From positions 1 through 35,364 of the forward strand of contig JASHSP010000026.1 in the NCBI GenBank assembly GCA_030038655.1: a stretch of 35,364 nucleotides of DNA, written 5' to 3'. The notes beneath the pieces are model-generated. The model did no database searches. It had not been told where the DNA came from and saw only the letters and a program-made list of their open reading frames with translations. The stretch comes from Thermoplasmata archaeon. GTDB lineage: Archaea > Thermoplasmatota > Thermoplasmata > Lutacidiplasmatales > UBA184. Both the position numbers and the translations under genes were made by a program. Below, one piece after another: positions 8,639 to 28,813 of this stretch; positions within the stretch are counted from its first letter, which is position 1; each line of letters begins with the position of its first letter.

Positions 8639-8906
8639 CGAACCCCTTCCTGTTGTTCACCCCTAGTGGGGGTTCCTCCACCCCCTTGGCGAATCGTGGG
8701 AAACGCCCCGTGCCCGCGCTAAAACCGGTGCGCTGGCCGAGCCCGAGTTCGGGGCGTCGCTCGCCGTAATGGGCCGGCTCAGGCCAATATCGCGGGCTCC
8801 GGTGGCCTCCGCGGTCGGCCCCGAGGTCGCGCCGCAGCGGAGTCACGCGGGCTCGAACGGGACCGGCGACCGAGGGTTCTTGTAGTATAATTCCGTGCGT
8901 CCGTGC

Positions 8907-11900
8907 ATGGTGGGTAGGCTTCGCCTCCGGGGGTTTGTCGCCGTAGTGATCGTCTTGGTCATGGCGGGTTCGTCGCTTGCGGTGCTGACCGCGGCACCCG
9001 CTTCGGCCGTGGCTTCGCCGGGGACGTTGGCTTCGGCCAGCTCGTCGGCGCCTTCGAGTTCCGGATCCACGGCGTCCGGGAGTTCGGGAGCTGTCGCGGT
9101 CGGTTCAACGGCCACCGCCCTCTCGATCAATACGGGGCTGGCCGCGCGCGTGCAGGCGACCGAACAACAGATTCTGGCCAGTGGCGGCAACCTTTCCAAC
9201 TTCCATCCTCCCAATCTTCATCAAGCACCCCCTCTGCACGACACGCACGGGCTCGTGACTCCGCTCTACTACGTTGCACCGGCACCCATGGGTGTGGCGT
9301 ACTTCGGTCTCAACAACACGACCGGGACGATGCAGGGAACTACGGTCAATACGACCAGCATCGCCGGTACGTGGCAGACCACCGACCCCCTCGGCACGCA
9401 GTCGGAGCTGTTCGATACCAGCTCCGGTAACGCCGCGGGCTCGTTTGGGGCACAGCTGAACAGCGTGCTGGTCAACATTTCACTCAAGGGTGCTACGGCG
9501 TACGGGCCCAACAGCCCGAACGCCCCTACCGGCTGCTCAGGATTCTATACGGGCGTGGAGAGCGACTACTGCCCCAACGTGTTCTGGCTGCAGAACTACA
9601 TTCAGTACACGGTATCGTCGCACACCCTCACAATCAGCAACGAGATCTGGAACTTCTCGAATCCGACGGCGGACTGGGCGGGCACGGGTACGAACACGAT
9701 CGAGGGGTTCGGGAGCGTCGAAGACTCCGAGGTCTATCAGGGACCTACCACGGCCAGCATCGCCGCCACCCCACCGTTCACGGTTGAGCTGTTCATGAAC
9801 TACACCCAGGGGCCGTGTCACACGGATTCGGTGGCCGGCACGGGCGTTCCAAGCTGCGGCTCGCTCAGCACCACCGAGCCGAACAACGAGCTCTTCATGA
9901 ACTACACCGTCCTGAACTCGGCGGGCACCCGAGTCTGCCCCTCCTCGGAGCCCACGGGGAGGGTGTGCGGGGAGGACGACGACGTCTTCTTCAACTCGGT
10001 GAACCCGAGCACGCCCACGGTGGGCGTTCCCGAGTACGGCCCCCACAACCGGATCGGTTCGGCGACCATCCAGGCGAACGGGACGGCGTACGACCCGGTC
10101 GGGCTGACCAACGATTTCGAGTTCGACTACGCGATCGGCTCCGACGACGGTGCGACGAACAACATCGTCTACCAGGACGGTAGCGTGGGGCTCGATTACT
10201 GCAAGGACTACGGTTCCCTTGGGACGACCAATGCCCTGCCCAGCGGAACGTGCGCCCAGTACAGCGCCCCCCCTGCCGCGACGGATTTTGGTAGCGAAAC
10301 CGGCGAAACCAGCACCGGGGAGGGGACCTATTGGGCCCCCCAGAGCGTGACAACGCTGTGTCCCGGCGGCGGGACGTGCGCGCTAACCCAGGGGAGTTCC
10401 ACCCCCGTCGCCCACCTCGTCACCGGCCCTTCGAACCTCGTCGGGCTATGGAACATGACGGGCAGCCCGTGCGTCGGCGCCACCCCCAGCTGTCCGTACG
10501 TGGGCGACGAGCCGCTCAGCTACCAGAACATCGCCCCCGCGAACGCCTGGGTCGGCATCGCCCGGGACGTCCGTCCGGGAGTCGAGGTCACGAACCAGTC
10601 GTACTTCCAGATCGCTCCCACGTTCGGGTTCGACTCGTCTTGGGGTGGTTCCGGAGGCGTGAAGGCGGCGCACCCGACCGCCCTGGGAACGAACATCTAC
10701 CTCCCGACCGGGTGGTACACCATCGAGGTCCTCCTCAGCGGGTACACGCCCGTGATGGAGCAGATCGACCTCACCGCACCGGCCGCGCCGTCGATCCAGT
10801 TGACACCGAATTGGTCGACCGGCGCTTACACCCCCGATTGGGCGTTCAGCAACACGGACCTTGCGAACCTCTCGGTCTCGCCGTCGAATTCCGTCCCGAA
10901 CGGGGCGGGAACGTCCGGCAATCCGTACATCGTCTCGGCGCCGGCGCCCGACGTCGGGGCGCCGTATGGTGTACCTGGATCGATCGCCTGGGTCTTCTCG
11001 AACACCAACGACTACCTGTTCACTCAATGGATCGGGGCGTTCGTCAACAGCACGACCGCGGTGACGCAGTTTAACCCGGCACCCTCGTTCCCCATCATCT
11101 ATCCGGCGTGGCAGCAGGCCTCGTTCGGCCCCAGGTTCAACGTGCCGAGTACCGACGGTCTTCAGTACTATCTGCTCAACGCGCAGAACATCGCCGTGAT
11201 CGGCGCAACCGACATCACCGCGTGGGGGAACAGCGAGGCGACCACCATCTACGCCTTCGTGGTCAACAACGGCGCGAACATCCTGATCGCCGACAACACG
11301 TTCCAGGTGTCGAACCGTGGGATTGATTTCACCGGCGGGGGAACGGCGGATTCGCGTACCATCAACGGGGTCGTCGTTCACGGAACGCTCGCCCCGGCGA
11401 TCAACGTGGTTTGGGGCAATACGTTCGTCCCGGACCCGCAGTCGCAGCGCTACTCCGGGCTCGAGCCGTTCACGGCGCAGGACTCGCTGACGATCGCCGA
11501 GGCGTACGACCGCGTGTACAACAACGCGTTCGACGCCTACGGGATCCCGACGGGCTCCGCGGTTCCCGCAGGTACCCTCAACACGACGGTGAACGCGGCC
11601 GCGGCGGACCTTACCATGTGGAACGCGACCTGCCAGGGTGGCTACGCCCCGCTCTCGTCGTCGGTCTACCCACCGACCACGGTCTGCGAGCCACTCAGCT
11701 ACTCCCAGACGCTCGACGGATACACGATGAGCGGCAGCATCCTTCCGGGGGCCACGTTCCAGGGCGGTAACTACTGGGCCGGGTACGGCACGTTGCCGGA
11801 CCCGTACGCGAACATTCCGTACAAGGCGCGTCTGACGACCCTCACGGGGACGGCCGAGATCGCCGCAACGACCGCCGGGTTCGCGGGCGATTACGCCCCC

Positions 11901-14900
11901 TTGATCGACCCGGTCTACAAGGTGCCGTTCACCGAGAGCGGTCTCGCGTCGTCGACGACGGCGACCGCGTTCGAGATCACGGTCACCAACGCCGCCGGCT
12001 ACACCGTGCTGAACGAGACGGCGACCAGCGCGGTCCCGGCGGGCTGTACGAGCGTGGTCTGCGTGAACTTCGACCTGCCGAACGGTACCTACAGCTGGGT
12101 CGCGTTGACCTCGCTGACCCTCACCGCACCGAGCCCGGCGGTAGGATCGTTCACGGTGAGCGGGGGCGCGGTCAGCGCGATCCCCATCACTTGGTCGACG
12201 GGGGCGGTACTGACGTTCACCGAATCCGGCCTTCACACCGGGGTCTTCTGGTATGTGAACATCACCGGTCAACGCCAGATCACATCGACAACGACCACGG
12301 CGACGATCACGCTCGCCAACGGGCTCTACAACTTCGCCTACAGCTTCCGAGATAACGTGGGGGCCTGCTACACCGGCGGTTCCGGGTCGGTAACGGTCAG
12401 CGGAACGACGGGCGAACCCGTAGCGTTCACAGCGGGGAACTACTGCGTGCTGTTCGGGGAGAGCGGCATAACGGCAGGATCCACCTGGCAAGTGACGCTG
12501 GGAGGCGTTCCGAAGTCCGTGACCACCGGCTCGGGCACGACGTACATCGGGTTCCTTGAATCGAGCAATGTGTATTCGTACTCCCTCGGCCCGGTCACGG
12601 GTTTCTCGGAGTCGGCGTTGCCCTCGAGCGGCACGGTGACCGTGAGCGGCGCGGCCGTCACGGAGACCACCGCGGCGTACTCGGCGTTCACGGTGTATCC
12701 GAACCTGTTCACCGTCCCGGTCGATGTGGGCGAGGCGACGTTCCTCTACACGATCTATTCGGGAGGGACGGCACCGTACACCGAGAGCTGGTCGGGGTTG
12801 CCGGACGGCTGCAGCAGCGCCACCGTCGCCTCGACCGGATACTGTACCCCCACGGACAACCTGGGCACGCCGTACTCACCGACCCTGACGTTCACCGACG
12901 CGTTCGGGAACGTTGCGACGGCATCGGTCAGGCTGCCGGTCGGTCCGGCGCTATCGGCCGGGACCGTTTCGGCGTCGACCAACCCGGTCGAGTCCGGTCA
13001 GCCGATAACGGTCTCAACGACCGGCGGCTCCGGTGGGGACGGTCAGTACTGGTATTCGTGGAGCGGTCTACCGAGCGGATGCAACAGCACCGCCCGGTCG
13101 TTCTCCTGTACCCCCCTGACCGCCGGGACGTACGACGTGGTCCTCAACGTGACGGACGGATACGGCGCCAACGTGACCTCGGCGTTCGCGCTCGTCGTCG
13201 ACTCGACGATCTCGACGAGCGTTTTGGCGACTCCCAGCCTGACCCAGGTCGGCGCCACGGTCGCGTTGACCGCCACGGTCTCGGGGGGCGTCGCACCGGT
13301 CCACTGGACGCTCGAGGCCAGCGGGTCGACCGCCAACCTCTCCAGCGGAACGTTCTCGCCCGCGTCGCCCGGCACGTACACGATCTACCTGAACGCGACG
13401 GACGCCAACGGCGACACCTCGGACGCGACCGCGGCCGTGACGGTCAATCCGGCCCTGGTCGCCACGCTGACGGCGAACCCGACGACGACCCAAGTCGACG
13501 AGGCGTCGCAGCTGTCGATCGCCCTGGCGTATGGGGTCGCCCCGTACGCCTGGACGCTCCAAGTGAACGGTTCGTCGGCGATCCTGGACTCCGGCTCGGG
13601 CGCGAGCAGCGCGTACTCGTTCGCCCCCGTCGGGGCAGGGACCTACACGTTCTACCTGAACTCGACCGACTCGGTCGGCAGCGTTTCGGACGTGACCGCG
13701 ACGGTGATCGTCAACCTGGCGCTCGGCGGCTCGCTGAGCGCGACCCCCAACCCCACGCAGGTCGGAACTCCGTCCGTTGTCTCCGTCAACCTGGTGAATG
13801 GAGTACCACCGTACTCCTGGACGCTTCAGCAGGGCGGAGTGACGGTCGATTCGGGCACCGGCGCGAGCGGGAGCTACAGCCTCCCGGCGTCGGCAGCGGG
13901 TTCGTATGAGTTCTATCTGAACGCGTCGGACTCCGTGGGCAGTCCGTTCAGCACGACGCTGACGGTCGTGGTCAACGCGGCCCTGTCGGGCTCGCTGAGC
14001 GCGACCCCCAACCCTACACAGGTCGGGACGCCATCGGACGTGTCGATCGGCCTGGAGAACGGGGTAGCTCCGTACGCTTGGACGCTCCAGGTCGGAGGAG
14101 TGACGGTCGACTCCGGCTCCGCGGCCAGCGCGACCTACAGCTTCAGTCCGGCCTCGGCGGGGAGCTACGAGATCTACCTGAACGCGAGCGACTCGGTCGG
14201 CAGCACGTTCTCTGCGACGACCACGGTGGTCGTCGACACGGCGCTCTTGGGAACGCTGAGCGCGACGCCGAATCCCACGCAGGTCGGCCAACCCGTACTG
14301 GTATCGGTCGACCTGTCGAACGGAGTAGCGCCGTACTCGTGGACCCTGCAAGAGGGCGGGGTGACGGTCGATTCGGGCACCGGCTCGAGCGGGAGCTACA
14401 GCTTCCCGGCGTCGGCGGCGGGTTCGTATGAGTTCTATCTGAACGCGTCGGACTCGGTCGGCAGTCCGCTCAACACGACGGTGACGGTCGTGGTCAACGC
14501 GGCCCTGTCGGGCTCGCTGAGCGCGACCCCCAACCCGACGCAGGTCGGGACACCATCGGACGTGTCGATTGGCCTGGAGAACGGGGTAGCACCGTACGCG
14601 TGGACGCTGCAGGTCGGTGGAGTGACGGTCGACTCCGGCTCCGCGGCCAGCGCGACCTACAGCTTCAGTCCGGCCTCGGCGGGGAGCTACGAGATCTACC
14701 TGAACGCCACGGACTCGGTGGGAAGCACGTTCGGCACGACCGTTACGGTCGTGGTCGATGCGGCGCTCACGGGGTCCCTGGGCGCGACGCCGAACCCGAC
14801 CCAGGTCGGCCAAGCGGTGCTCGTATCGGTCAGTCTATCGAACGGAGTTGCGCCGTACGCGTGGACTCTCAAGGAGGGGGACGTGACGGTCGACTCGGGA

Positions 14901-16364
14901 ACGGGCGCCAGCGGGAGCTACAGCTTCCCGGCGTCGGCCCAAGGGTCGTTCGTGTTCCACCTGGACGCGACGGACGCGGTCGGCAGCACGTTCGGGGCTA
15001 CGGTGACGGTCGTGGTGAACGCGGCCCTATCGGCCTCGCTGAGCGCGACGCCGAACCCGACGCAGGTCGGAAAGCCGGTGCTGGTATCGGTCGACCTGTC
15101 GAACGGAGTAGCGCCGTACTCGTGGACCCTGCAGGAGGGCGGGGTGACGATCGACTCGGGGACGGGCGCCAGCGGGAGCTACAGCTTCCCGGCGACGGCC
15201 CAGGGATCGTATGTGTTCTACCTGAACGCGACGGACTCGGTGGGGAGCGTTTCGGACGTGACGGCCACGGTGATCGTGGACGCGGCGCTGGTCGCTCACC
15301 TGTCGCCGGCAACGGCCACGATCCACCTCGGTGGGACCGTGACCTACGTGCTCTCGCACACCGGCGGGGTCGCCCCGATCACCTACACGCTCCAGGCGAG
15401 CGGGCCGGGGCTCTCCGGCAACGTGTTCACGCCGACGGCGCCCGGGACGTACACTATCTACTACAACACGACCGACTCGGTCGGCAGCGTCTCGGACGTA
15501 ACGGCGACCGTGACGGTCGAAGCGAAGGCTCTCTACTCCGTGACGTTCACGGAGACGGGTCTTCCGAAGAACGCGAAGTCGTGGTCCGTGACGTTCAACG
15601 GCACGACGGTGACCACGAAATCGATAGCGCACACGGCGACCACGGCGACGATCGAGTTCAACGTGACGAACGGAACGTACGCCTACCTGATCTGGGGTGC
15701 GGCCGGCTACGACACGGGATTCCCGGATGGGAGCGTGGTCGTAGCAGGATCGCTCCAATCGGTGAGTGTCCCCTTCTCGAGGGGCTCGACGCCGACCGTT
15801 AGCTTCCACGAAGTGGGGCTCGCGACCGGGTCGAAGTGGTGCGTGGAGCTCGCCTCGACGCTGACGACCTGCTCGACGACGGCCAAGGTTTCGTTCCTGC
15901 ACCTCAGCTCGGGCCAGATGTACTCCTACGTGATCGAAGAGGTGGGTTCGGCGAGTACGCTCGTGAAGGTCGGGACCTCGTGGGTCCTCCAATCGAGCGG
16001 CACCGTGACGGACCCGACGGGCGTCACGGTCCAGGTGCGGTTCGCCTACCTGGTGACGTTCACCGAGACCGGACTCCCGGGCGGAACGTCCTGGAGCGTT
16101 ACGTCGGAGGGCCAGACGGCGTCGTCCACGGGAACGACGATCGGCCTCTACCTGACGAACGGGACGGACGGGTACACCGTCCATGCGGTCCCCGGCTACA
16201 AGGAGACGTCCACCCCTCACCACGTGGTGGTGGCGGGCGGGCCGGCGAGCGTGTCGGTGACGTTCACACCCAAGCCGGGCGGAGCGCCGGTGGCCGGAGG
16301 GCCGGCCGTGGGCGCGACCCTGAGCGAAGTCGTGCGGGCGATCGAGGTCGTCCTGCGCCTCTGA
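8907..16364 (+). CDS. Thermopsin-family (peptidase A5) giant secreted protein, paralog of 2129-8560
   Basis: Same layout: signal peptide MVGRLRLRGFVAVVIVLVMAGSSLAVLTAAPASA; VFWLQNYIQYTVSSHTLTISNEIWNFS and NDFEFDYAIGSDDGAT; beta-helix-like middle; 87-aa repeats; FTETGLP modules. The ORF track starts at GTG 8895; ATG 8907 fits the signal peptide better. Confidence 0.87.
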   Translation: MVGRLRLRGFVAVVIVLVMAGSSLAVLTAAPASAVASPGTLASASSSAPSSSGSTASGSSGAVAVGSTATALSINTGLAARVQATEQQILASGGNLSNFHPPNLHQAPPLHDTHGLVTPLYYVAPAPMGVAYFGLNNTTGTMQGTTVNTTSIAGTWQTTDPLGTQSELFDTSSGNAAGSFGAQLNSVLVNISLKGATAYGPNSPNAPTGCSGFYTGVESDYCPNVFWLQNYIQYTVSSHTLTISNEIWNFSNPTADWAGTGTNTIEGFGSVEDSEVYQGPTTASIAATPPFTVELFMNYTQGPCHTDSVAGTGVPSCGSLSTTEPNNELFMNYTVLNSAGTRVCPSSEPTGRVCGEDDDVFFNSVNPSTPTVGVPEYGPHNRIGSATIQANGTAYDPVGLTNDFEFDYAIGSDDGATNNIVYQDGSVGLDYCKDYGSLGTTNALPSGTCAQYSAPPAATDFGSETGETSTGEGTYWAPQSVTTLCPGGGTCALTQGSSTPVAHLVTGPSNLVGLWNMTGSPCVGATPSCPYVGDEPLSYQNIAPANAWVGIARDVRPGVEVTNQSYFQIAPTFGFDSSWGGSGGVKAAHPTALGTNIYLPTGWYTIEVLLSGYTPVMEQIDLTAPAAPSIQLTPNWSTGAYTPDWAFSNTDLANLSVSPSNSVPNGAGTSGNPYIVSAPAPDVGAPYGVPGSIAWVFSNTNDYLFTQWIGAFVNSTTAVTQFNPAPSFPIIYPAWQQASFGPRFNVPSTDGLQYYLLNAQNIAVIGATDITAWGNSEATTIYAFVVNNGANILIADNTFQVSNRGIDFTGGGTADSRTINGVVVHGTLAPAINVVWGNTFVPDPQSQRYSGLEPFTAQDSLTIAEAYDRVYNNAFDAYGIPTGSAVPAGTLNTTVNAAAADLTMWNATCQGGYAPLSSSVYPPTTVCEPLSYSQTLDGYTMSGSILPGATFQGGNYWAGYGTLPDPYANIPYKARLTTLTGTAEIAATTAGFAGDYAPLIDPVYKVPFTESGLASSTTATAFEITVTNAAGYTVLNETATSAVPAGCTSVVCVNFDLPNGTYSWVALTSLTLTAPSPAVGSFTVSGGAVSAIPITWSTGAVLTFTESGLHTGVFWYVNITGQRQITSTTTTATITLANGLYNFAYSFRDNVGACYTGGSGSVTVSGTTGEPVAFTAGNYCVLFGESGITAGSTWQVTLGGVPKSVTTGSGTTYIGFLESSNVYSYSLGPVTGFSESALPSSGTVTVSGAAVTETTAAYSAFTVYPNLFTVPVDVGEATFLYTIYSGGTAPYTESWSGLPDGCSSATVASTGYCTPTDNLGTPYSPTLTFTDAFGNVATASVRLPVGPALSAGTVSASTNPVESGQPITVSTTGGSGGDGQYWYSWSGLPSGCNSTARSFSCTPLTAGTYDVVLNVTDGYGANVTSAFALVVDSTISTSVLATPSLTQVGATVALTATVSGGVAPVHWTLEASGSTANLSSGTFSPASPGTYTIYLNATDANGDTSDATAAVTVNPALVATLTANPTTTQVDEASQLSIALAYGVAPYAWTLQVNGSSAILDSGSGASSAYSFAPVGAGTYTFYLNSTDSVGSVSDVTATVIVNLALGGSLSATPNPTQVGTPSVVSVNLVNGVPPYSWTLQQGGVTVDSGTGASGSYSLPASAAGSYEFYLNASDSVGSPFSTTLTVVVNAALSGSLSATPNPTQVGTPSDVSIGLENGVAPYAWTLQVGGVTVDSGSAASATYSFSPASAGSYEIYLNASDSVGSTFSATTTVVVDTALLGTLSATPNPTQVGQPVLVSVDLSNGVAPYSWTLQEGGVTVDSGTGSSGSYSFPASAAGSYEFYLNASDSVGSPLNTTVTVVVNAALSGSLSATPNPTQVGTPSDVSIGLENGVAPYAWTLQVGGVTVDSGSAASATYSFSPASAGSYEIYLNATDSVGSTFGTTVTVVVDAALTGSLGATPNPTQVGQAVLVSVSLSNGVAPYAWTLKEGDVTVDSGTGASGSYSFPASAQGSFVFHLDATDAVGSTFGATVTVVVNAALSASLSATPNPTQVGKPVLVSVDLSNGVAPYSWTLQEGGVTIDSGTGASGSYSFPATAQGSYVFYLNATDSVGSVSDVTATVIVDAALVAHLSPATATIHLGGTVTYVLSHTGGVAPITYTLQASGPGLSGNVFTPTAPGTYTIYYNTTDSVGSVSDVTATVTVEAKALYSVTFTETGLPKNAKSWSVTFNGTTVTTKSIAHTATTATIEFNVTNGTYAYLIWGAAGYDTGFPDGSVVVAGSLQSVSVPFSRGSTPTVSFHEVGLATGSKWCVELASTLTTCSTTAKVSFLHLSSGQMYSYVIEEVGSASTLVKVGTSWVLQSSGTVTDPTGVTVQVRFAYLVTFTETGLPGGTSWSVTSEGQTASSTGTTIGLYLTNGTDGYTVHAVPGYKETSTPHHVVVAGGPASVSVTFTPKPGGAPVAGGPAVGATLSEVVRAIEVVLRL
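13716..15281 (+). repeat. Tandem array of six 261-bp (87-aa) Ig-like units with alternating higher-order pattern
   Basis: SLSATPNPTQVG recurs every 261 nt; the type-A unit at 13977 recurs at 14499 (522 nt). Confidence 0.9.
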
Positions 16365-16518: not shown

Positions 16519-17298
16519 ATGAGCGGAATCACCGCACCTTCCTCGGCCGACGCGGCAGTCTCGCTCCGGTCCCTGGGCAGCGCGTCGGAGGTGGACGAGC
16601 TCGCCGTATCCGACCTGTCCGACGAGTTCGGGCCGTTCCTGTCGCACTTCATGCGGGAAACCCTGCGCGCGGCCGGCGACGTCCGGCTGGCCCGCGTCGG
16701 CCCGGATCTGAAAGGCGTCTACCTGTACGATCCGGTCGAGCGGGTAGCCTCGATCTTCACTCGCACCGCCGCGGTCGCCGAGACGCTGTTCGCGCTTCGA
16801 GACCATCTCAGCGTCTTCTCGGAGTTCCCGCTCGGGCCGCCGCGCGAGCGGTACGACGTCTTTTCCCTGTCGCTTCCGACACCGGCACCCGTCCCGCCGT
16901 TCCGACACCCGGTGCGGGCGGCCCGCGAGGGCGACCGCGCCTCGCTGCTCGATCTGATGAGCGGAGTGTACGAGCGGTTCAACGCGGGCTGGCTCGACTC
17001 GACCCCGGCCGGCTCGGAAAAGTGCTTCGTGGTCGAGGCCGACGGGCGGATGGCGGGCGCTGCCTGGGTGAGCCGGGCGGGGTCCCACGGCCGACTGCAC
17101 TCGCTCTCCGTCAGCCCCCGATTCCGGGGGCTCGGTATCGGCTCCGATCTCTGGCGTGCGCGCGTCCTCTGGGCGGGCGGAGCGGGGATACTCCGCTTGA
17201 TCTCCGAGATCCCGGAGGCGAACGCCGCCTCTCGGGCGATCGCACGGCGCGGTGGGATGCGGCCCACGGGGCTCACCTTCCGCTACGACCGGCCCTGA
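16519..17298 (+). CDS. GNAT-family N-acetyltransferase with extra N-terminal domain
   Basis: C-terminal half has FVVEADGRMAGAAWVSR...LHSLSVSPRFRGLGIGSDLWRARV...NAASRAIARRGGM, matching the GNAT acetyl-CoA-binding motif (R-x-x-G-x-G). Confidence 0.85.
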   Translation: MSGITAPSSADAAVSLRSLGSASEVDELAVSDLSDEFGPFLSHFMRETLRAAGDVRLARVGPDLKGVYLYDPVERVASIFTRTAAVAETLFALRDHLSVFSEFPLGPPRERYDVFSLSLPTPAPVPPFRHPVRAAREGDRASLLDLMSGVYERFNAGWLDSTPAGSEKCFVVEADGRMAGAAWVSRAGSHGRLHSLSVSPRFRGLGIGSDLWRARVLWAGGAGILRLISEIPEANAASRAIARRGGMRPTGLTFRYDRP

Positions 17299-17303
17299 CG
17301 GTG

Positions 17304-18344
17304 CTAGTTCCTCGGCGCCCCACAGTTGGGGCAGCGGTCGAGCGTGGAGTCGATCAGGGTGCCGCAGTACTTGCAGTTTACCTTGACCGTGTCGCGGAGA
17401 ACGATCTGCTGGACCGCGGGTTGGTCGGACGGGTTCAACCGCACCGGCGGCGGTGACCCGGCGGGAGGATAGTACCGGACCTGACCGGTCGGCGAGTGGG
17501 CGGGGAGCCTGGGGCGCCGTCGCGACCGGGAGGCCGCCCAGGCGATCACGACCACGATCACCACGACCACGAGAACGAGGGCGACGATGACGTCGGGCGT
17601 GAACGGAGACGGTGTCATGGCCGCGGCCGGCGGGGTGCCGGCCGTCAGGGCATACGAGGTGCTCGTGACGTAAAGGTTGTCGGTCCAGGAGAACCCGTTC
17701 CCGTTGGAGGCGTTCGTATCCTGTTCCGTGTAGTGGTATCCGACGATGTAACCCGTGGTGGGGTCGAAGTACTCCTTCCAGTCGTAGCTCGCGTCGAAGA
17801 CGCCGTAGGCGTCGTTGCGCTCGTACGACCCGACCCCCTGGGCGTAGATGGTGGCGACCCACCGGCCCGGGTCGCTCCCGAGGAGGTAGCTGGTGTTGCG
17901 CGACTCGACCGTCATCGGGTAGGTGAGGACCGAGAAGTCGGCCCCCACGGCCAGCGCGTTGTCCATGTAGAACCAGACCTCCGAGCCGTTCAGGCCCGAC
18001 TGGTTGTCCGTGCCGTTCACGTAGAGGAACGATACGGCGGAGAAGGTGAAATTCCCCTCGGAAGTCCAGTGCAGCGGTCCCGAGTTGTTCGAGTAGTTGA
18101 CCGAGTAGTCAAAGCGGGCCGACTCCGTGCCGTTCGTCGCGGTCGCCGTCACCGTCTCGGTCCCGACCACCGAGTACTCCTCGAAGTAGCCGCCGTAGAC
18201 CGACCCCGTCCCGTTCGTCAGGGCGATCGATTCGTGGTACGTGAAACTGTCCCCCGTGTGCGGGTCGTAGTGGCCGGCGACGGGTACGTGACCGAGCGGG
18301 GCGAGCAGGAGGAGGAGGGCGACCGCGGTGACGGAGGAGCTCAC
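17304..18344 (-). CDS. Membrane protein: secreted beta-rich ectodomain, TM helix, cytoplasmic Pro-rich linker and C-terminal zinc ribbon
   Basis: Start reassigned to GTG at 18344 (VSSSVTAVALLLLLAPLGHVPVAG signal peptide), overlapping the upstream gene stop by 4 nt (GTGA). TM is DVIVALVLVVVVIVVVIAWAAS; zinc ribbon is CKYCGTLIDSTLDRCPNCG. Confidence 0.8.
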   Translation of the reverse strand: MSSSVTAVALLLLLAPLGHVPVAGHYDPHTGDSFTYHESIALTNGTGSVYGGYFEEYSVVGTETVTATATNGTESARFDYSVNYSNNSGPLHWTSEGNFTFSAVSFLYVNGTDNQSGLNGSEVWFYMDNALAVGADFSVLTYPMTVESRNTSYLLGSDPGRWVATIYAQGVGSYERNDAYGVFDASYDWKEYFDPTTGYIVGYHYTEQDTNASNGNGFSWTDNLYVTSTSYALTAGTPPAAAMTPSPFTPDVIVALVLVVVVIVVVIAWAASRSRRRPRLPAHSPTGQVRYYPPAGSPPPVRLNPSDQPAVQQIVLRDTVKVNCKYCGTLIDSTLDRCPNCGAPRN

Positions 18345-19879
18345 CCGGAGAACCCTCCCCCGCCCCCGTGAACGTGACCCGGGTGGACTCCCCCGATGCC
18401 GCTGAAGGTCGAGTAGTAGCCGCCGTGCATCACGATCAGCGGGCCGTAGAAGAACCCCGGCATGAACATCGGGCGGGGCCCGCCGTACCCGACGCCGGCC
18501 GCAGCGGGCGTCGGGACCTGGGTTGAATCCATTCCGGTGATTGTCTCGGTCCGAACCCCGTGGACCATCCGAACGGCCAGGCAGATCAGTTCGGCTTGGG
18601 AGGACGGCATCGCCCGCCGCCCGACGATGTCGTACGCCTCCTCGAGGAGGTTGAGGGACTCGTTCGCCTCGAGGACCGGGACCGACGCCAGGATCGCCGC
18701 GGCGACCAGGGGGTACTCGAGGTAGGTTCCGAGACCCCTCGCGAGGATCGCGAGCTTGGTGGAGATCCCCTCCACCGGGAGCTCCGAGATCGCAAGGTAG
18801 GCCGAAGCGAGCTCCACATCCTCGGAGGCTTGGTACCCCCAGCTCGCGAACATCGACCGAAGGGCAGTGAACTTCGAGGCTACGTCCGGGCGGTTGACGA
18901 TCGCCATCAGAGCGGCCGACTCGTACGAGAGGGTCATCTGGAGGAATTGGGCGAGCTCGCCGGTGGCGAACGTTCCGTCCGCGCGCTGCCCCAGCAGCAG
19001 GACCGAGGCGACCCCGAGCGAGGACTCCTTCGGGACCCGCGCCACATGCCGCGCGTCGTGCTCGAGTTGGGTGAGCGCGGGCATCGCATCCTCCACGCCA
19101 CGGGGAAGGCACGACAGGATCTCGGCGGCCATCAACTGGTTCTCCACGTTGTGGGCGAGCGAGCCGATGCGGCCGAAGGCGTCCAAGTAGACCCGCTCGC
19201 CCTGCCCGACTTCGGGCTGGAGCTTGGCGAGTCCAATGCCCACGGCCCAGAGGTTGGCCCGGTCGACCCGAGCGAGGGGTGCCGCGAGGTCTCCCACGTA
19301 CTGTGCTCCGCGGTCGGCCATGCCGTTCAGCTCCTGGTCGACGGACTGCCGTTGGGCGCAGTAGGCGGCGAAATCGACGTCCGACGCGCGGTACAGACGG
19401 AAGCCGAGGTCCCTCAGCTCCTTGGCGCCGAGCGCGGTGAGCGCGACGTACGCCCCGTCGCACGGGGTCAGCGTGTCGAGGAGCGATCTCTTGGCGATCA
19501 GGCTGTCGAGGCCTTGCTCGCGGGCCGCCAGGTCGCTGTCGGCCCTCCGGACGGCGCCTTCCTCCTGGGCTTCCTCTCGGAGGGCCGCGTCCCGCTTGTC
19601 CTTCGATTCCAGATGGAACAGGATGGAATGGGTCTTCCGGAAGTCGTCCTCCGCCTGCTGGGAGAGGCGGGCCCGTTCCTGGGCGCGCTGGGCGATGTCG
19701 CCCGAGACCTGGGCGATGGTGTCGATCTCGGAGCGCATCGCGGCGTACTGCTCGGCCGTGAGGTAGGAGATCAGCTGGAGCTGTTGGAGGGCGGTGATGT
19801 CGGCCGGGGCGAGGCTCGGGGTCGCCGAACGGTTCCGTACGTTGGTGAGGAACGTGAAGACGGCCTGACAGTTCGCCAT
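18341..19879 (-). CDS. Uncharacterised alpha-helical protein: central coiled coil, helical repeats, Gly/His-rich C-terminal tail
   Basis: Start reassigned to ATG at 19879 (MANCQAVFTFLTNVRNRS). Charged coiled-coil region RAQERARLSQQAEDDFRKTHSILFHLESKDKRDAALREEAQEEGAVRRAD; tail GGVHPGHVHGGGGGFSG. The downstream helical part loosely resembles DUF4003, unverified. Confidence 0.75.
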   Translation of the reverse strand: MANCQAVFTFLTNVRNRSATPSLAPADITALQQLQLISYLTAEQYAAMRSEIDTIAQVSGDIAQRAQERARLSQQAEDDFRKTHSILFHLESKDKRDAALREEAQEEGAVRRADSDLAAREQGLDSLIAKRSLLDTLTPCDGAYVALTALGAKELRDLGFRLYRASDVDFAAYCAQRQSVDQELNGMADRGAQYVGDLAAPLARVDRANLWAVGIGLAKLQPEVGQGERVYLDAFGRIGSLAHNVENQLMAAEILSCLPRGVEDAMPALTQLEHDARHVARVPKESSLGVASVLLLGQRADGTFATGELAQFLQMTLSYESAALMAIVNRPDVASKFTALRSMFASWGYQASEDVELASAYLAISELPVEGISTKLAILARGLGTYLEYPLVAAAILASVPVLEANESLNLLEEAYDIVGRRAMPSSQAELICLAVRMVHGVRTETITGMDSTQVPTPAAAGVGYGGPRPMFMPGFFYGPLIVMHGGYYSTFSGIGGVHPGHVHGGGGGFSG

Positions 19880-19881
19880 GG

Positions 19882-21054
19882 TTACCAGTCGATCGCCGGG
19901 AACCGCGTATAAAACGACGCTTCTTGACCCTTGTTGCGGACCTCCAGCTCGAGCCGGCGCCCGGTCTCCTCGAGCCGAACGATCGGATCCCCGGCGAGGG
20001 CCTCCCGCAAGACCCCCTCGAAGTGGCGTTTCCGCGAGCCCAAGGTGCCGAACCGGCGGGCCCGCTCCCCCTCGATCTGCTCGTACGCGAACATGAACTC
20101 GTAGAGCGAACGGAACATCTGGTCCTCCACCTTCTCGCGCACTCCTTCGGGCTCGACGGTCGCCTCGTCGATGCCTTCGAGATCCACGAAGAAGACGGCC
20201 CCGTCGGGGGCGATCACCGCGTCCTTGTCGAGCCATACGTCGTTGAAGTCGAGCCCGGTGTACCGTCCCCGAGCGAGGTCGGGGGTCAACGTCCGGGCAA
20301 AGAGGGTCATCATGGCCACGGTGGTCCGGACGTACTGGACCTCGAATCGAAGCGCCCTGGCGCTCGAGTCCAGCCCGAACCGGTCGAAGAGGTGGCGCAC
20401 GTCGTTGCCCACCGTGCTGCGGGCGTGGAAGTAGATCCGTACGTTCGACGGCACGAGGCGTAGCTCCTGCACGAACCGCCCGGTGTAGGTCCGGTACCAG
20501 TGGATCGTACGCAGCCGCTCCTCGAGCGCGGGCGGGAAGAGGCAGATCTTCACGAGCGGGGCGATGAGAAAGCCGTCGAGGGACGTGAGGTCGGCCCGCT
20601 CGGAGACCCGAAGGGCGACGGAGGCGTGCTCCAGACCCTGTCCGCCGTACGGGGAGCCGCGGAGCCACAGTTCGCCCGTGATGTATCGGTCGATCCCCGG
20701 CGCGGTGGGTCGCTCCAGGCGCGCCCGCACGTCCGGGTCGCCGACCAGCGCCGCGACCCGCTGGACGTCGAGGGGCTTCGAGGCGTACGGATCGATCGCC
20801 GAACCGACCCCCTTCACGGAGAGATAGAACTCCCGCCCGTCGAGGGTGGCCACCGGCTCCGGGGACACGGCCCCCCGGTTGTCGTCCTCGAGGAACACCA
20901 CCGTCTCCGCGGCCGGCTCGTCGAGGAGGGACGCCAGGGACGGGGGCAGATAGATCCGGTCCGCGATCGAGAGGGCGGCCCCCCCGAACCGCCGGTTGGG
21001 AATCGACGCGCATGGGTAGGTTCCCAGCGGAAGCGGTGACCCGAGCAGCCTCAT
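19882..21054 (-). CDS. Uncharacterised protein, possibly kinase-like fold
   Basis: Start reassigned to ATG at 21054 (MRLLGSPLPLGTYP). Ends 2 nt before the next gene start. Motifs EFYLSVKGVGS, YTGLDFNDVWLDKD and VFFVDLEGID resemble a beta3 Lys, a catalytic D..N loop and a DFG-like strand. Confidence 0.72.
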   Translation of the reverse strand: MRLLGSPLPLGTYPCASIPNRRFGGAALSIADRIYLPPSLASLLDEPAAETVVFLEDDNRGAVSPEPVATLDGREFYLSVKGVGSAIDPYASKPLDVQRVAALVGDPDVRARLERPTAPGIDRYITGELWLRGSPYGGQGLEHASVALRVSERADLTSLDGFLIAPLVKICLFPPALEERLRTIHWYRTYTGRFVQELRLVPSNVRIYFHARSTVGNDVRHLFDRFGLDSSARALRFEVQYVRTTVAMMTLFARTLTPDLARGRYTGLDFNDVWLDKDAVIAPDGAVFFVDLEGIDEATVEPEGVREKVEDQMFRSLYEFMFAYEQIEGERARRFGTLGSRKRHFEGVLREALAGDPIVRLEETGRRLELEVRNKGQEASFYTRFPAIDW

Positions 21055-21250: not shown

Positions 21251-21279
21251 CAGTGCCGAACCGCCCCCCGAGGAGGCGC

Positions 21280-21789
21280 ATGCCGGCCCGGATCATCGGT
21301 CTCTACTCGCTCGCGTGCATGGAGCGCGAGGGCCCGGTCTACGGTTACTTCATCTCCGACCGGATCTCGGAGCGGACCGGCGGCGCGTGGAGGCCGGGCG
21401 CAGGGGCGGTGTATCCGGCCCTCCAGGCGTTGGTGGCGCGGGGTCTCGCCTCCCGGAGCGGCCAGGGGCGCCGGCTCGAGTATCGGATCACCCCCGCGGG
21501 GCGTCGCGCGCTGCGGCGCCTGCGGTCGCAGACCGAGCCCGGGGGCCGGTCCGCTCCGGATCTCTCCGCCCTCTGGGGGGACGTCGTCGGGCGGCGGGAC
21601 CTGGGGCCGTTCCTGCTCCACCGAATGCGTCGGACCCTGGTCGGGATCGAGACCCATCTCGCCCGGACCGCCGGAACGGCCGCGGGTCGCGCCCTTCGGG
21701 CGCAGGTCGTCCGGGAGCTCGCCGGCGCGCGGACGCGGATCGCGACGGCGGGTCGCGCGCGCCGCGCGAGGGCCGGAGGGACCCGATGA
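21280..21789 (+). CDS. PadR-family transcriptional regulator
   Basis: Winged-helix motif GPVYGYFISDRISERTGGAWRPGAGAVYPALQALVARGLASR...RLEYRITPAGRRAL. AGGAGG lies just upstream of ATG 21280. Followed by ABC genes. Confidence 0.85.
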   Translation: MPARIIGLYSLACMEREGPVYGYFISDRISERTGGAWRPGAGAVYPALQALVARGLASRSGQGRRLEYRITPAGRRALRRLRSQTEPGGRSAPDLSALWGDVVGRRDLGPFLLHRMRRTLVGIETHLARTAGTAAGRALRAQVVRELAGARTRIATAGRARRARAGGTR

Positions 21790-22790
21790 ACGGACCCCTC
21801 AACGGCAGCGCGATCGTCGTGAAGGACCTGTCGAAGCACTACGGCTCGGGCGCGCGCCTGGTGCGGGCGCTCGACCACGTCACGCTGACCATCCCGTCCG
21901 GGACCGTCTTCGGACTGCTCGGTCCGAACGGGGCCGGCAAGACGACCCTCATCAAGGTCCTCACGGGCATCTCCGAGATCACGGACGGCGACGCGACCGT
22001 CGCGGGGTTCGACGTCCGGCGCCAGTCGATGGACGTCCGGGCCCGGATCGGCTGGGTCGCGGCCGAGGTGATCCTCGACGACGACTTCAGCGCGCGCGAG
22101 AACCTCTGGTTCCAGGCGAAGCTCCAGAGCCTCAAGGGATGGGAGTCCCGCGCCGAGGATCTCCTCAAGTTCTTCTCTCTCGCCGACCGCGCGGACGAGA
22201 AGGTCAACCAGTTCTCGACGGGGATGCGCAAGAAGCTCGAGATTGCCCTCGCGCTCCTCCACCAGCCCCTCGTGATCTTCATGGACGAGCCGACGATCGG
22301 CCTCGACGTCAGCACGCGTCGGATGCTGTGGGACATCGTGACGGGGGTCCACAAGGAGTTCGGCGTCACCGTGCTCCTCACCACGCACTACATCGAGGAG
22401 GCGGACGCGCTCTGCGACCGGATCGCGATCATCGACCAGGGCCGGATCCTCGCCGAGGGCACGCCCTCCGAGCTCAAGAGCCGCGTCCGGGCCGACATCG
22501 TCCAGCTGGAGACGGTCGAACCGCTCGACGCCGCGCGGCTGTCCCGCATCCCGGGAGTTCAGGAAGTACGGGCCCAGGGGAACGACTGGACCGTCCGCGT
22601 CGCCACCGCCGACGACTTCCTGCCGCGGCTGTTCGCCTCGGTGCGGACCGACCAGATCCGGCGGATCAGCGTCGAGAAGCCGAGCCTCGAGACGGTGTTC
22701 CTCGAGGTCACCGGGCGTCGGCTGGGCCAGGACGAGCCGATCCGCGACGTGCGGCGGTTCTACGCCCAGATGCAGAGGGCCCGCCGATGA
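21786..22790 (+). CDS. ABC transporter ATP-binding protein (DrrA-like)
   Basis: Walker A GPNGAGKTT, signature-like FSTGMRKKLEIALAL, Walker B LVIFMDEPTIGLD, switch His in LLTTHYIEEAD. ATGA overlap with PadR stop. Confidence 0.93.
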   Translation: MNGPLNGSAIVVKDLSKHYGSGARLVRALDHVTLTIPSGTVFGLLGPNGAGKTTLIKVLTGISEITDGDATVAGFDVRRQSMDVRARIGWVAAEVILDDDFSARENLWFQAKLQSLKGWESRAEDLLKFFSLADRADEKVNQFSTGMRKKLEIALALLHQPLVIFMDEPTIGLDVSTRRMLWDIVTGVHKEFGVTVLLTTHYIEEADALCDRIAIIDQGRILAEGTPSELKSRVRADIVQLETVEPLDAARLSRIPGVQEVRAQGNDWTVRVATADDFLPRLFASVRTDQIRRISVEKPSLETVFLEVTGRRLGQDEPIRDVRRFYAQMQRARR

Positions 22791-23563
22791 GACCCCAATG
22801 GAGCCCGCTCTGGGGGCTGTACTGGCGCGAGATCGTCCGGACGTTCCGGAACCCGTTCGTCCTGCTGATCACGGTCGTCCAGCCGTTCATGTGGCTCGCG
22901 TTCTTCGGGAGCAGCTTCTCGGAAGCCCCCGCGAGCACCCTGGAGGGGATCTTCGGGGCGTCGAACTACATCCAGTTCCTGCTGCCCGGCGTCCTCTCCA
23001 CGTCGATGCTGACCGTCGGGATGTTCGGATCGATGAGCACCATCCAGGACAAGCGGTTCGGATTCATGAAGCGCATCCTGATCACGCCCACGTCGAAGGG
23101 GACCGTCTTCCTCACGAAGGCGCTCGGCTCGGCCTCCCGCGGGCTCGTCCAGTTCCCCGTCATGGTGGCGGCGGCGCTGGTGTTCGGCGTGCCGTTCCAC
23201 CTTTCGCCGCTCCAGTGGGCGGCGTGGGTCGGCGCGCTCATGCTCCTCGCGATCGGCTTCTGCAGCCTCTTCCTCGCGATCACCGCCCGCGCGACCGACT
23301 GGCAGACGCCGGGCGTCGTTTCGAACTTCATCACCATGCCGCTCATGTTCTCGAGCGCCGCCCTGTTCGGCGCGAAGTACTTCCCGCCCTGGATGGTCGC
23401 GATCTCGGACGTCAACCCGATCACGTTCTCGGCACTCCTGGGCCGGAGCTTCGTCCTCGGGACGACCACGCACTGGGTGTACCTCGGCTACCTCGCGATC
23501 TTCGCGGGGCTCATGCTCGCGATCGGGTTCGTCGTCTCGAGCCGGTGGCTGCGGGTCGAGTAG
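22787..23563 (+). CDS. ABC-2 type transporter permease
   Basis: Start WREIVRTFRNPFVLLITVVQPFMWLAFFG, several hydrophobic helices. ATGA overlap with the ATPase gene. Confidence 0.9.
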   Translation: MRPQWSPLWGLYWREIVRTFRNPFVLLITVVQPFMWLAFFGSSFSEAPASTLEGIFGASNYIQFLLPGVLSTSMLTVGMFGSMSTIQDKRFGFMKRILITPTSKGTVFLTKALGSASRGLVQFPVMVAAALVFGVPFHLSPLQWAAWVGALMLLAIGFCSLFLAITARATDWQTPGVVSNFITMPLMFSSAALFGAKYFPPWMVAISDVNPITFSALLGRSFVLGTTTHWVYLGYLAIFAGLMLAIGFVVSSRWLRVE

Positions 23564-23569
23564 GACCGC

Positions 23570-26008
23570 CTACCTCGGGGAGGGGCTGCCGGCGGCGGTG
23601 GTAGGGCCTTCGGCCGGGGCCCGCACCTCGAAGTCCCGCCCTTCCCACCGGTCCGACTCGGGCCAGTAGAACGTGAACCGCCACGACCGGCTCGGCCGGT
23701 CGAGCGGCGGGAGGTCGACGTAGTGCAGCCCGAGACCGGTCCCCCGGGAGTCGAGGGTCTGCGGAGTTCGCCAGTCGTCGTCGCTCGCGCGCAGCCGGAA
23801 CGGGGCCCCCGCGATCACCCGGATCGTCGCGTCGGCCGGCGCGCGGACCGGTTGCCGGTCGAACTTCCATACCTCCAGGGTCGAACGCCGGCGCCCCCGC
23901 CGGAGGTACCGCTCCGCGACCGCCGGGACCCGGTCGAACACCGCGCCGTCCGACGCCGAGCGGAGCAGCGTGAGGTACTCGGCCTGCGCCCAGGCGAGCG
24001 GCATCGCGGCCTCGGTGGGACGGCCGAGCTCGAGGTGCAGGGACGGCCGGTCGGCCTCGTCCCACACCTGCTCGGTGAGGAGGCCGGTCGGCGTGGCGAA
24101 CTTCTCCATCGCCTCCAGATACGGGCCCGCGTCGCGGCCGGCCGCGATCTCGTAGTGGCCTCGCTCGCCCGTGAGGACCGGCCAGGCGCGGCCGGTGCCC
24201 CAGTCGGTGTACGGACCTCCGTCGTCGCGTTGCCCGTATCCGTCGTGGTTGTACCGGCGCCAGACCGGTCCGTAGGGCGTTTCCACGCGGAGGATCCGGT
24301 CGACGACCCGCAGCGAGTCGACCACGAGGGGGTCGTCGGGGGCCCGGACACCGTACCGCACGAGGTCGAGGAATCCGGCGTCGACCACCTCGCTCGCGGG
24401 GAACTCGTTCGGCGCCTCGGGAGGAAGGTTGGGGAGGCGCACCGTCCCGAGGTCCGTCCCGTCGACCGGTACAGGGACCGCCGTCGACGCCGGTCGGATC
24501 CGGACGTAGTGCTGGGGGATCCCCTTCACGAGGGTCCCCCGCCGGGTGACCGTCCACCGTTCGACGTGCGCCTCGAGGAAGTCCGCGTACTCCTGGATGA
24601 ACGTGGCGGTCCCCTCGTCGCCCCGCGCCCGGGCGAACCCGGCGGCGACCGTCAGCGCCGCGATCCCCGTCGCGAGGGTGGACGGCGAGTAGCCACCGAC
24701 CTCCTCCCATCGGTCCTGCTCGGTCGCGGGACCGCGCTCGATCAAGTACCGCGCCCCCTGCGACACCATCGGTCCCGAGTCGAACGGGGATTCCCGAGGG
24801 AGGGGTCCCAGCTTGGACGCGAGGAGGATCGGGAGCGCCACCTCGTCCAGCTGGATCCCCTGCCAGTACGGCGTCCCGTCGACCCAGAAGTTCTGAGGGA
24901 AGCCCCCGTCCGGACGCTGCTGCGTCGCCAGGTAGACGAGGGCGCGGAGTGCGGTCTCGGTCGCCCCCGACGCGAGGAGCCCGGTCGCGCAGTGCGCCAT
25001 GTCCCGGGTCCAGACGAGATGGTACCCGCCCCGATCCGAGTCCGATTTCGCCGCACCCCACGGGATCGAGAGCGAGGCGATGAACGCCCCGGCGAAGAGC
25101 TTGTCCTCGTGGGCCAGGAGCGTCGCCCGGCTCGCGCGGTACAGGCGCCCGCCGTCGTGCGAGCGACCTCCGAGGGGAAGCTCGTGGGCCGTGGTGCGCT
25201 GCCACTGCTCAAGGAACCGGCGGTGGTGGAGCTCGAACGGCGCGGCGAGCGACTGGTGCAGCGTCGTCACGGCCGACTGGAGGGAGTCGCCGAACGCGAG
25301 CCCGAGCGTGAACTCCGTGACCTCCGCGAGCGAGATCTCCCCCGTGAGCGCCACGTTCCCGTCGGGCGCCCGGTCGAACTCCCAGGCCATCGTGCCGTGC
25401 TGGGAGATGTCGGTGTACCCGTCGCTGGCCCCCACGTATCCGACGGAGGTCCGGACGAACGGCACGGTCGCCCCAACCGCCAGGGCGGTCCCGCCCTTCT
25501 CGGCCGCCAGGAAGGAGCGGCCCAGGAGCTCGTAGACCGCCGCGTGGTTGCCCCAGCCGCCGACCTCGAGGTGCGGCGCGACCAGGGCATACAGCCGGAG
25601 CTTCCCGACCAGGCGGCGGTCGAGGACCTCGAGCCGAGTCCGCACGAGGAGGCACGGCTGGTGCGGGTCGCCGATCACCCACTTGGTCAGCCGGTACCGG
25701 CCCTCCGGCTCCTCCGAAACGACGCGGAACCCGAGCGCGTGCTCGTGCGGCCGCTCGGTCCTCGGGACGAGGTGCCGCTTCTCCTCGTGGAACAGCGCAC
25801 CGCCGTCGGCGAAGAGGAATTCGAGGTCGCGCAGCTGGGGTCGATCGATGCGCGGATAGTAGACCTCGGTCACGGTCCCGCGCCAGAGGGTGTACCAGAG
25901 GCGGGAATCCGACGAGTAGGCCGTGCCGACGCCGTCCTTGTTGCTGTGCGACCAGCGGGGCTCGATGCCGGGACCGCCGAAGGCGAGTCGGTTCCCCCGG
26001 GGTTGCAC
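23570..26008 (-). CDS. Glycoside hydrolase family 15 protein (glucoamylase/glucodextranase-like)
   Basis: LVWTRDMAHCATGLLASGA...PDGGFPQNFWVDGTPYWQGIQLDEVALPILLA with N-terminal domain DGVGTAYSSDSRLWYTLWRGTVTEVYYPRID typical of GH15 enzymes. GTG start at 26008. Confidence 0.88.
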   Translation of the reverse strand: MQPRGNRLAFGGPGIEPRWSHSNKDGVGTAYSSDSRLWYTLWRGTVTEVYYPRIDRPQLRDLEFLFADGGALFHEEKRHLVPRTERPHEHALGFRVVSEEPEGRYRLTKWVIGDPHQPCLLVRTRLEVLDRRLVGKLRLYALVAPHLEVGGWGNHAAVYELLGRSFLAAEKGGTALAVGATVPFVRTSVGYVGASDGYTDISQHGTMAWEFDRAPDGNVALTGEISLAEVTEFTLGLAFGDSLQSAVTTLHQSLAAPFELHHRRFLEQWQRTTAHELPLGGRSHDGGRLYRASRATLLAHEDKLFAGAFIASLSIPWGAAKSDSDRGGYHLVWTRDMAHCATGLLASGATETALRALVYLATQQRPDGGFPQNFWVDGTPYWQGIQLDEVALPILLASKLGPLPRESPFDSGPMVSQGARYLIERGPATEQDRWEEVGGYSPSTLATGIAALTVAAGFARARGDEGTATFIQEYADFLEAHVERWTVTRRGTLVKGIPQHYVRIRPASTAVPVPVDGTDLGTVRLPNLPPEAPNEFPASEVVDAGFLDLVRYGVRAPDDPLVVDSLRVVDRILRVETPYGPVWRRYNHDGYGQRDDGGPYTDWGTGRAWPVLTGERGHYEIAAGRDAGPYLEAMEKFATPTGLLTEQVWDEADRPSLHLELGRPTEAAMPLAWAQAEYLTLLRSASDGAVFDRVPAVAERYLRRGRRRSTLEVWKFDRQPVRAPADATIRVIAGAPFRLRASDDDWRTPQTLDSRGTGLGLHYVDLPPLDRPSRSWRFTFYWPESDRWEGRDFEVRAPAEGPTTAAGSPSPR

Positions 26009-27433: not shown

Positions 27434-28813
27434 CTACGCCGAGGCGCCGAGCTCGGAAAGCGCACGGCGGACGCGTTCCAGGCCCAGATCGGCGAGCGCC
27501 CGGGCGCGTGCCGGCTCCTTCGCCTCCGCGGAAACCCGGAAGATCGGCTCGGTACCGGACGGGCGCAACAGGACCCACCCTCCCGGCAGGTACGCCTTGA
27601 TCCCGTCGATCGTCTCGACCCGCTCCGCCGTCGCGCGCATCGACTCGGAGACCTTGGCGATCACCCGGTCCCGATACTCGGCGGGGCACGCGACCTTCTC
27701 CTTGACGAGCGTGTAGCGCGGTATCTCCCGCACCAGGTCGGCGAGGGGGCGACCGGTCCGCGCGAGAACGTCGAGGAGGGTGGCGGCCGCCATCGCGCCG
27801 TCGCGCGCGAGCTGGAACCGCGGGAAGACGAGACCGCCGTTGTCCTCGCCGCCGAACACCGCCCGGCGCGCCATCATCTCGTGCGTGATGGACGGCGAGC
27901 CGACGCGCGTGTAGACGACCGATCCTCCGAGCGGTCGGACGGTGTCCTCCACCGCCTGCGACGCGGCGACCGGCACCACGACGGTCCCCCCGCCGTGCCG
28001 CTCGACCGCATCCCGCGCGAGGAGGGCCAGCATCTGCTCGCCGGGGACGTACCGACCCGCGGCGTCCACGAAGACGGCCCGGTCGGCGTCGCCATCGTGC
28101 GCGATCCCGAGGGCGGCGCCGACCGCGGGGACGGCGCGGCAGAGGTCGGCCAGGGCCGCTTCCGTTGGCTCCGACGGCCGGCCAGGAAACGTCCCGTCGA
28201 CATGCGCGTTCAGCGTGATCGTGCGGCACCCCAGCCGGCCGAGCAGTGCGGGGCTCGTCGGGATCGACGCGCCGTTGCCGCAGTCGAGGACGACCGAGAA
28301 GTTCCGGGCGGCGATCCGCGCGGGGTCGACCTGCGCGACGATCCCGTCGAGGTACCGCTCCGCCCCCGCCGGATCGGCCACGACGCTCCCAATCCGGGAG
28401 TACGGGACGGTCGGGCTGACGCCCCGTTCGACCGCGGCCTCGATCGCCTCCTCCGTCGCGCGCGTCACCTCCAGCCCGTCCGCTCCGATGCACTTGAGGC
28501 CGTTGAACTCGGGCGGGTTGTGGGACGCGGTGACGATGACGGCCAGGTGGGCCCCGACCCGGGGGACATTGTACTGGATCGCGGGAGTCGCCAGGAGGCC
28601 TAGGTCGATGACGCGATGGCCCGCGGCCGCGAGCGTCCCGGCCACGACCTGGGCGAACGCGGGGCTGGACGTTCGACCGTCGCGTCCCACCGCGAGGGTC
28701 GCCGGGGCGGGAACGATCGAGGCGATGGCGCCCGCCACCCGGGTCACGAACGGGGCGGTGAACGTTTCTCCGACGACCTCCCGGATGCCGTTGGTTCCGA
28801 ACAGTCGGGCCAT
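27434..28813 (-). CDS. glmM: Phosphoglucosamine mutase / phosphohexomutase
   Basis: MARLFGTNGIREVVGE start, catalytic serine loop VTASHNPPEFNGLK, metal site DGDADRAVFVD, EDNGGLVFP, phosphate loop LRPSGTEPIFRV. Confidence 0.9.
   Translation of the reverse strand: MARLFGTNGIREVVGETFTAPFVTRVAGAIASIVPAPATLAVGRDGRTSSPAFAQVVAGTLAAAGHRVIDLGLLATPAIQYNVPRVGAHLAVIVTASHNPPEFNGLKCIGADGLEVTRATEEAIEAAVERGVSPTVPYSRIGSVVADPAGAERYLDGIVAQVDPARIAARNFSVVLDCGNGASIPTSPALLGRLGCRTITLNAHVDGTFPGRPSEPTEAALADLCRAVPAVGAALGIAHDGDADRAVFVDAAGRYVPGEQMLALLARDAVERHGGGTVVVPVAASQAVEDTVRPLGGSVVYTRVGSPSITHEMMARRAVFGGEDNGGLVFPRFQLARDGAMAAATLLDVLARTGRPLADLVREIPRYTLVKEKVACPAEYRDRVIAKVSESMRATAERVETIDGIKAYLPGGWVLLRPSGTEPIFRVSAEAKEPARARALADLGLERVRRALSELGASA

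Follow-up and report, generated by a model that had tools for sequence, protein, structure and literature searches.

The NIS siderophore synthetases AcsD and DesD (IucA/IucC) are ATP-using enzymes; they activate a carboxylate by adenylation and go on to make an ester or amide bond (PMC3323832). SelO (YdiU, PF02696), an enzyme with a kinase fold, catalyses the transfer of AMP (PMC8097203). Together with protein kinases and pseudokinases, such as ALK2, BMPR2 and ROP5, and with the GNAT acetyltransferases (PF00583), these are the described families that come closest to parts of a four-gene unit, A-B-C-D, in the genome of a Thermoplasmata archaeon. The unit lies in a contig stretch of 35,364 nucleotides, the whole of which is referred to here as the window, and it almost certainly exists as a real entity. 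A search of the openly licensed part of PubMed Central yielded no description of it; of its protein families only GNAT, that of D, is known, whereas the other three and the combination are undescribed in the sources searched. The unit consists of the following features:

Gene A, 19882..21054 (stop included), minus strand: divergent protein of 390 aa with a predicted kinase-like fold.
Gene B, 18341..19879, minus strand: predicted helical protein of 512 aa with a His/Gly tail.
C-terminal tail of B, 18341..18436, minus strand: ends ...YYSTFSGIGGVHPGHVHGGGGGFSG-stop.
Gene C, 17304..18344, minus strand: protein of 346 aa, with a GTG start that overlaps the stop of B (GTGA).
Gene D, 16519..17298, plus strand: protein of 259 aa, with an N-terminal domain specific to the A-B-C-D system and a C-terminal GNAT acetyltransferase domain.

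A sequence-only reading of the window had described A, B and C as a tightly coupled three-gene operon. The coupling is exact, with a gap of 2 nt between A and B and with the stop of B and the start of C sharing GTGA, and the three genes are co-conserved; but the unit comprises four genes, and the convergent GNAT gene D, whose stop codon lies 5 bp from that of C, had been missed. Comparison with up to seven relatives gives, for codon positions 1, 2 and 3, per-site differences of 0.28/0.22/0.47 for A, 0.34/0.26/0.51 for B and 0.38/0.31/0.49 for C. This is the pattern of selection at the protein level, and A, B and C are genuine genes. That none of the three belongs to a nameable family was borne out by searches against Pfam and NCBIfam. 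A and B match no family above cut-off, and scanning their aligned relatives singly added nothing coherent; C shows only sub-threshold zinc-ribbon and transmembrane matches (DUF7577 with 20.2 bits vs a cut-off of 28). Sequence searches of solved structures likewise gave no significant match for A, B or C.

Among 84,980 species genomes, a profile-guided scan identified 71 archaeal loci that encode A; it was also used to test the co-conservation of the three genes across related genomes. B follows A in 67 of these loci and C follows B in 64, all misses being contig ends; the order and strand of A-B-C are thus kept at every locus where the contig continues. The spacing from B to C is -4 nt in 52 of 64 loci, which supports GTGA as the start of the window's copy of C. 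The hosts are archaea from soil and acid water and include Thermoplasmata (among them Candidatus Lutacidiplasma silvani), Thermoplasmatales, Bathyarchaeota and one Nitrososphaerales-labelled bin. In an unrooted tree of A, the sequences from outside the Thermoplasmatota form one well-supported branch within the wider set. The distribution is patchy: A is present in 21 of the 37 genomes of the window's genus and missing from several that are >90% complete, and it occurs in 15 of 390 genomes drawn across the phylum. Within the genus, B is found in the same genomes as A, except at contig breaks. A few copies are damaged. A frameshift splits B in a Bathyarchaeota bin (L123:6272-7812), reflecting either a sequencing error or true breakage, and C appears broken or truncated in L132 and L114, in both of which the other three genes are intact.

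A, B, C and D are the only frames of the window that recur among the loci, and no other flanking family occupies a fixed place across them that would indicate a larger operon. Upstream of A and divergent from it, a PadR-type regulator is followed by a DrrA-like ABC transporter ATPase and an ABC-2 permease (21253-23563, plus strand); the PadR gene and the ABC transporter were considered as members of the unit and rejected, these neighbours not being conserved. Directly before D, the plus strand encodes two giant secreted proteins of 2143 and 2489 aa (2129-8560 and 8895-16364), both of which carry PKD-like repeats behind a thermopsin peptidase domain. Further minus-strand genes encode a glucodextranase/GH15 glucoamylase-like protein with a strong Pfam match (23570-26008), a phosphoglucomutase/phosphomannomutase (27434-28813) and a family M50 membrane peptidase (30364-31941).

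The AlphaFold model of A is of high confidence (mean pLDDT 91.9, pTM 0.91). A Foldseek search against the PDB returned no match below E 0.001; the best is AcsD (2w04; E 1.3e-3, prob 0.96, TM 0.37/0.28), and TM-scores of the PDB matches reach at most 0.38. Among the best 50 PDB matches listed, all those with a description have a kinase-like shape or are siderophore synthetases; they comprise AcsD, DesD, receptor kinases and other protein kinases, ROP pseudokinases, a phosphatidylinositol kinase and a macrolide phosphotransferase. In a viral structure library, kinases take ranks one, three and seven among the matches, again with weak scores. The kinase-like character that had been proposed for A is thus echoed in two structure libraries, by weak matches of which none falls below E 0.001, and a kinase-like fold is supported by the predicted structure but not proven.

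Alignment with two distant relatives shows residues of A that are invariant down to about 30% identity: D57-D58-N59-R60, K81-G82-x-G84, D269, D272-V-W-x-D276-K277-D278, G285 and D291. The invariant K81 lies at the end of the third strand, and a D-x5-D motif is followed by a second aspartate 13 residues on (D278 to D291). In protein kinase A, 13 residues likewise separate the metal-binding asparagine from the aspartate of the DFG motif. By their position in the predicted secondary structure, K81, D278 and D291 can be assigned as putative strand-3 lysine, metal-site residue and DFG aspartate, respectively. A recognisable glycine-rich loop and an HRD motif are lacking.

Each of the described families shares some feature with A and departs from it in others. 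The NIS synthetases provide the best Foldseek matches, but they are fingers-palm-thumb proteins of about 575 residues, compared with 390 in A, and the genes around A are not siderophore genes. As an IucA_IucC Pfam match is missing, classification of A as an NIS synthetase is unsupported. The strands and helices of A follow one another in an order that would fit a two-lobed kinase, and many protein kinases and pseudokinases are matched in the PDB at E about 0.01; however, A matches none of the Pfam kinase families up to E 10, in addition to lacking the HRD motif and the glycine-rich loop, and without a sequence profile match its membership in the protein kinase family is unsupported as well. 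The absence of Pfam matches at E up to 10 applies to all families, and most of the 45 relatives give none at E 1. SelO offers a motif likeness that is striking at first sight, with DDNR-(20)-KGxG-x-DPFS in A and GDGR-(19)-KGxGxTPYSR in SelO, but its metal-site spacing is +9 as against +13 in A. Profile comparison with hhalign lands on the same DDNR...DPFS stretch, with a score of 23.7 over about 46 columns (probability 1%, p 0.05). A score this high was reached by 7 of 199 SelO alignments with shuffled columns, so that the resemblance is not significant. Owing to this weak score, to the shuffles that equal it and to the missing Pfam match, membership of A in the SelO family was rejected and the likeness kept as a lead only; the genome contains no PF02696 locus. 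At most, A may work like SelO, a protein kinase or an NIS synthetase, and it is filed under none of them. If the fold assignment is right, A represents a highly divergent, unannotated family near the kinase fold.

B is composed of N-terminal helices, a long coiled-coil hairpin, a strand pair, helical repeats extending to about residue 449 and a disordered His/Gly tail. The predicted structure (pLDDT 84.5) is helical throughout, with residues 450-512 disordered at pLDDT below 50, in agreement with the helical, Gly/His-tailed protein that had been read from the sequence. Searches against the PDB retrieved only designed alpha/alpha toroids (4yxx, prob 0.90) and unrelated helical proteins, with no natural protein below E 0.09. 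The toroids resemble B in their tandem helix pairs, but B adds the coiled-coil hairpin and the His/Gly tail. Shorter paralogues of B elsewhere in these genomes have neither hairpin nor tail, suggesting that the strand pair is part of a winged-helix-like start, which is interrupted by the hairpin in B. Such paralogues at L061-L066 (24-30% identity, lacking the coiled coil and the tail) lie between giant secreted proteins bearing carboxypeptidase-regulatory-like repeats and adjoin a conserved small membrane protein; this neighbourhood pointed to no function for them.

The tail of B ends in a motif of roughly GG[FM]xG, and every intact copy (63 of 63), like both distant homologues, has glycine as its last residue. 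Part of this pattern lies in the DNA: the GG at positions -5/-4 coincides with the expected position of the ribosome-binding site of C, and the overlap with the start of C constrains the third base of B's last codon. At codon -5, GGA or GGG is used in 81% of cases, compared with 50% of the glycine codons elsewhere in B. The glycine pattern as a pure protein signal was therefore partly rejected, the -5 codons favouring GGA/GGG as a ribosome-binding site would. This signal does not explain the terminal glycine itself, which is kept in copies without the overlap and in the fused lineages in which no C follows. For this reason, the terminal glycine is, with moderate confidence, read from the sequences as a protein-level feature.

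C is predicted to contain a signal peptide, an ectodomain of about 220 residues, one transmembrane helix (about 252-270), a Pro-rich linker and a C-terminal CxxC...CxxC zinc ribbon. The CxxC pairs C324-C327 and C338-C341 are present in at least 90% of relatives, and all 10 N-glycosylation sequons lie on the ectodomain side. The layout of secreted domain, membrane helix and zinc ribbon, as the sequence-only reading had it, is thus retained, and C can be classified from these features as a single-pass membrane protein.

D is a GNAT protein, containing a full-length Acetyltransf_1 domain (PF00583; E 8.7e-11, 42.6 bits vs a curated cut-off of 20.7). It adjoins C tail to tail in 56 of the 57 loci with DNA beyond C, as a full gene in 55 and as one truncated copy; the sole exception among the 57 testable loci is L081, which has A-B-C without D. 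In most loci, no more than about 60 bp separate the stops of C and D, and 19 of 55 loci have overlapping stops. Since D is encoded on the opposite strand, it may be expressed separately from A-B-C. D differs from other GNAT acetyltransferases in its extra N-terminal domain: these 125 residues, outside the GNAT domain, find a match in 17 of 61 related genomes and all 17 carry A, so that among the sampled relatives the domain occurs only in A-bearing genomes. D also differs in being fused to a membrane ectodomain in two lineages. In two distant relatives, one of the same class (G060) and one of another class of the phylum (G083), the gene order is C::D-A-B, and the ectodomain and membrane helix of C run straight into both domains of D within one protein. 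The zinc ribbon is missing from both fused proteins; that of L060 matches PF00583 with 46.0 bits (cut-off 20.7). The fusion, and a gene order permuted circularly from A-B-C-D to CD-A-B, would be difficult to account for if the four proteins did not act together. Taken with the co-conservation, this shows that the four genes belong together.

We give an even chance to A-B-C-D being one membrane-anchored, ATP-dependent unit for protein modification or signalling. C, with its secreted sensor-like domain, membrane helix and cytoplasmic zinc ribbon, would place the unit at the membrane and may sense signals there, in line with the membrane-sensing or signalling module tentatively suggested by the sequence-only reading. 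A would act as a kinase-like-fold enzyme, binding ATP and transferring a phosphate or nucleotide group. B would provide a cytoplasmic scaffold, the exposed tail with its invariant C-terminal glycine being a putative docking site or substrate. The acetyltransferase D would modify a partner, or share the target of A, beside the membrane helix of C, with which it is fused in two lineages, and the four proteins may form a physical complex. More specifically, an undescribed machine in which the kinase-fold enzyme, at the membrane and with a GNAT enzyme, has as its substrate an exposed protein tail that ends in an invariant glycine would constitute an archaea-specific tail modification; we consider this quite improbable.

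GNAT enzymes often act on amines. A cluster for the biosynthesis of small molecules or of the cell envelope could make use of this, with D acetylating an amine intermediate, B and C holding the enzymes at the membrane, and A serving as an ATP-dependent carboxylate-activating ligase like the NIS synthetases, since its best structure matches, AcsD and DesD, adenylate carboxylates (PMC3323832). Such a cluster is rather unlikely: conserved genes for other biosynthetic steps, for transport or for iron uptake are missing beside A-B-C-D, and the length of A and its missing IucA_IucC match speak against such a ligase. The carboxylate chemistry of these fold matches, together with the terminal glycine of B in 63/63 copies, including those without an overlapping downstream start, and in both distant homologues, would also suit a reaction analogous to ubiquitin-like conjugation, in which A adenylates the C-terminal glycine of B, or of another protein, and the unit attaches it to an amine. 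However, the glycine pattern is partly a nucleotide signal, as the -5 codons show, the predicted structure of B has no ubiquitin-like fold, and conserved neighbours resembling an E1, an E2 or a protease are missing, leaving this chemistry very improbable.

The missing glycine-rich loop and HRD motif could instead mean that A has lost catalysis and only binds partners, with D as the sole enzyme of a scaffold. D272, D276, D278, D291, K81 and DDNR are nevertheless invariant to about 30% identity, which suggests an active site and not a relic, and a pseudoenzyme is distinctly unlikely. The patchy presence, with absences from several nearly complete genomes, would be in keeping with a membrane-associated defence or conflict system, in which a modifying enzyme disables an invader or the host. 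This receives only a slim chance from us, as none of A, B, C and D matches PADLOC, no relative occurs in viral contigs or plasmids, and conserved defence neighbours are absent.

If the reading of A-B-C-D as a membrane-anchored modification or signalling unit is right, the locus represents a widespread, undescribed membrane module of archaea that links two enzymes, one with a kinase fold and one an acetyltransferase, to a single membrane protein. The general kind, a membrane protein with modifying enzymes, is already known. With four genes, A-B-C-D is compact and can be expressed whole, making its function directly testable, and it would extend membrane-linked, ATP-dependent modification in archaea.
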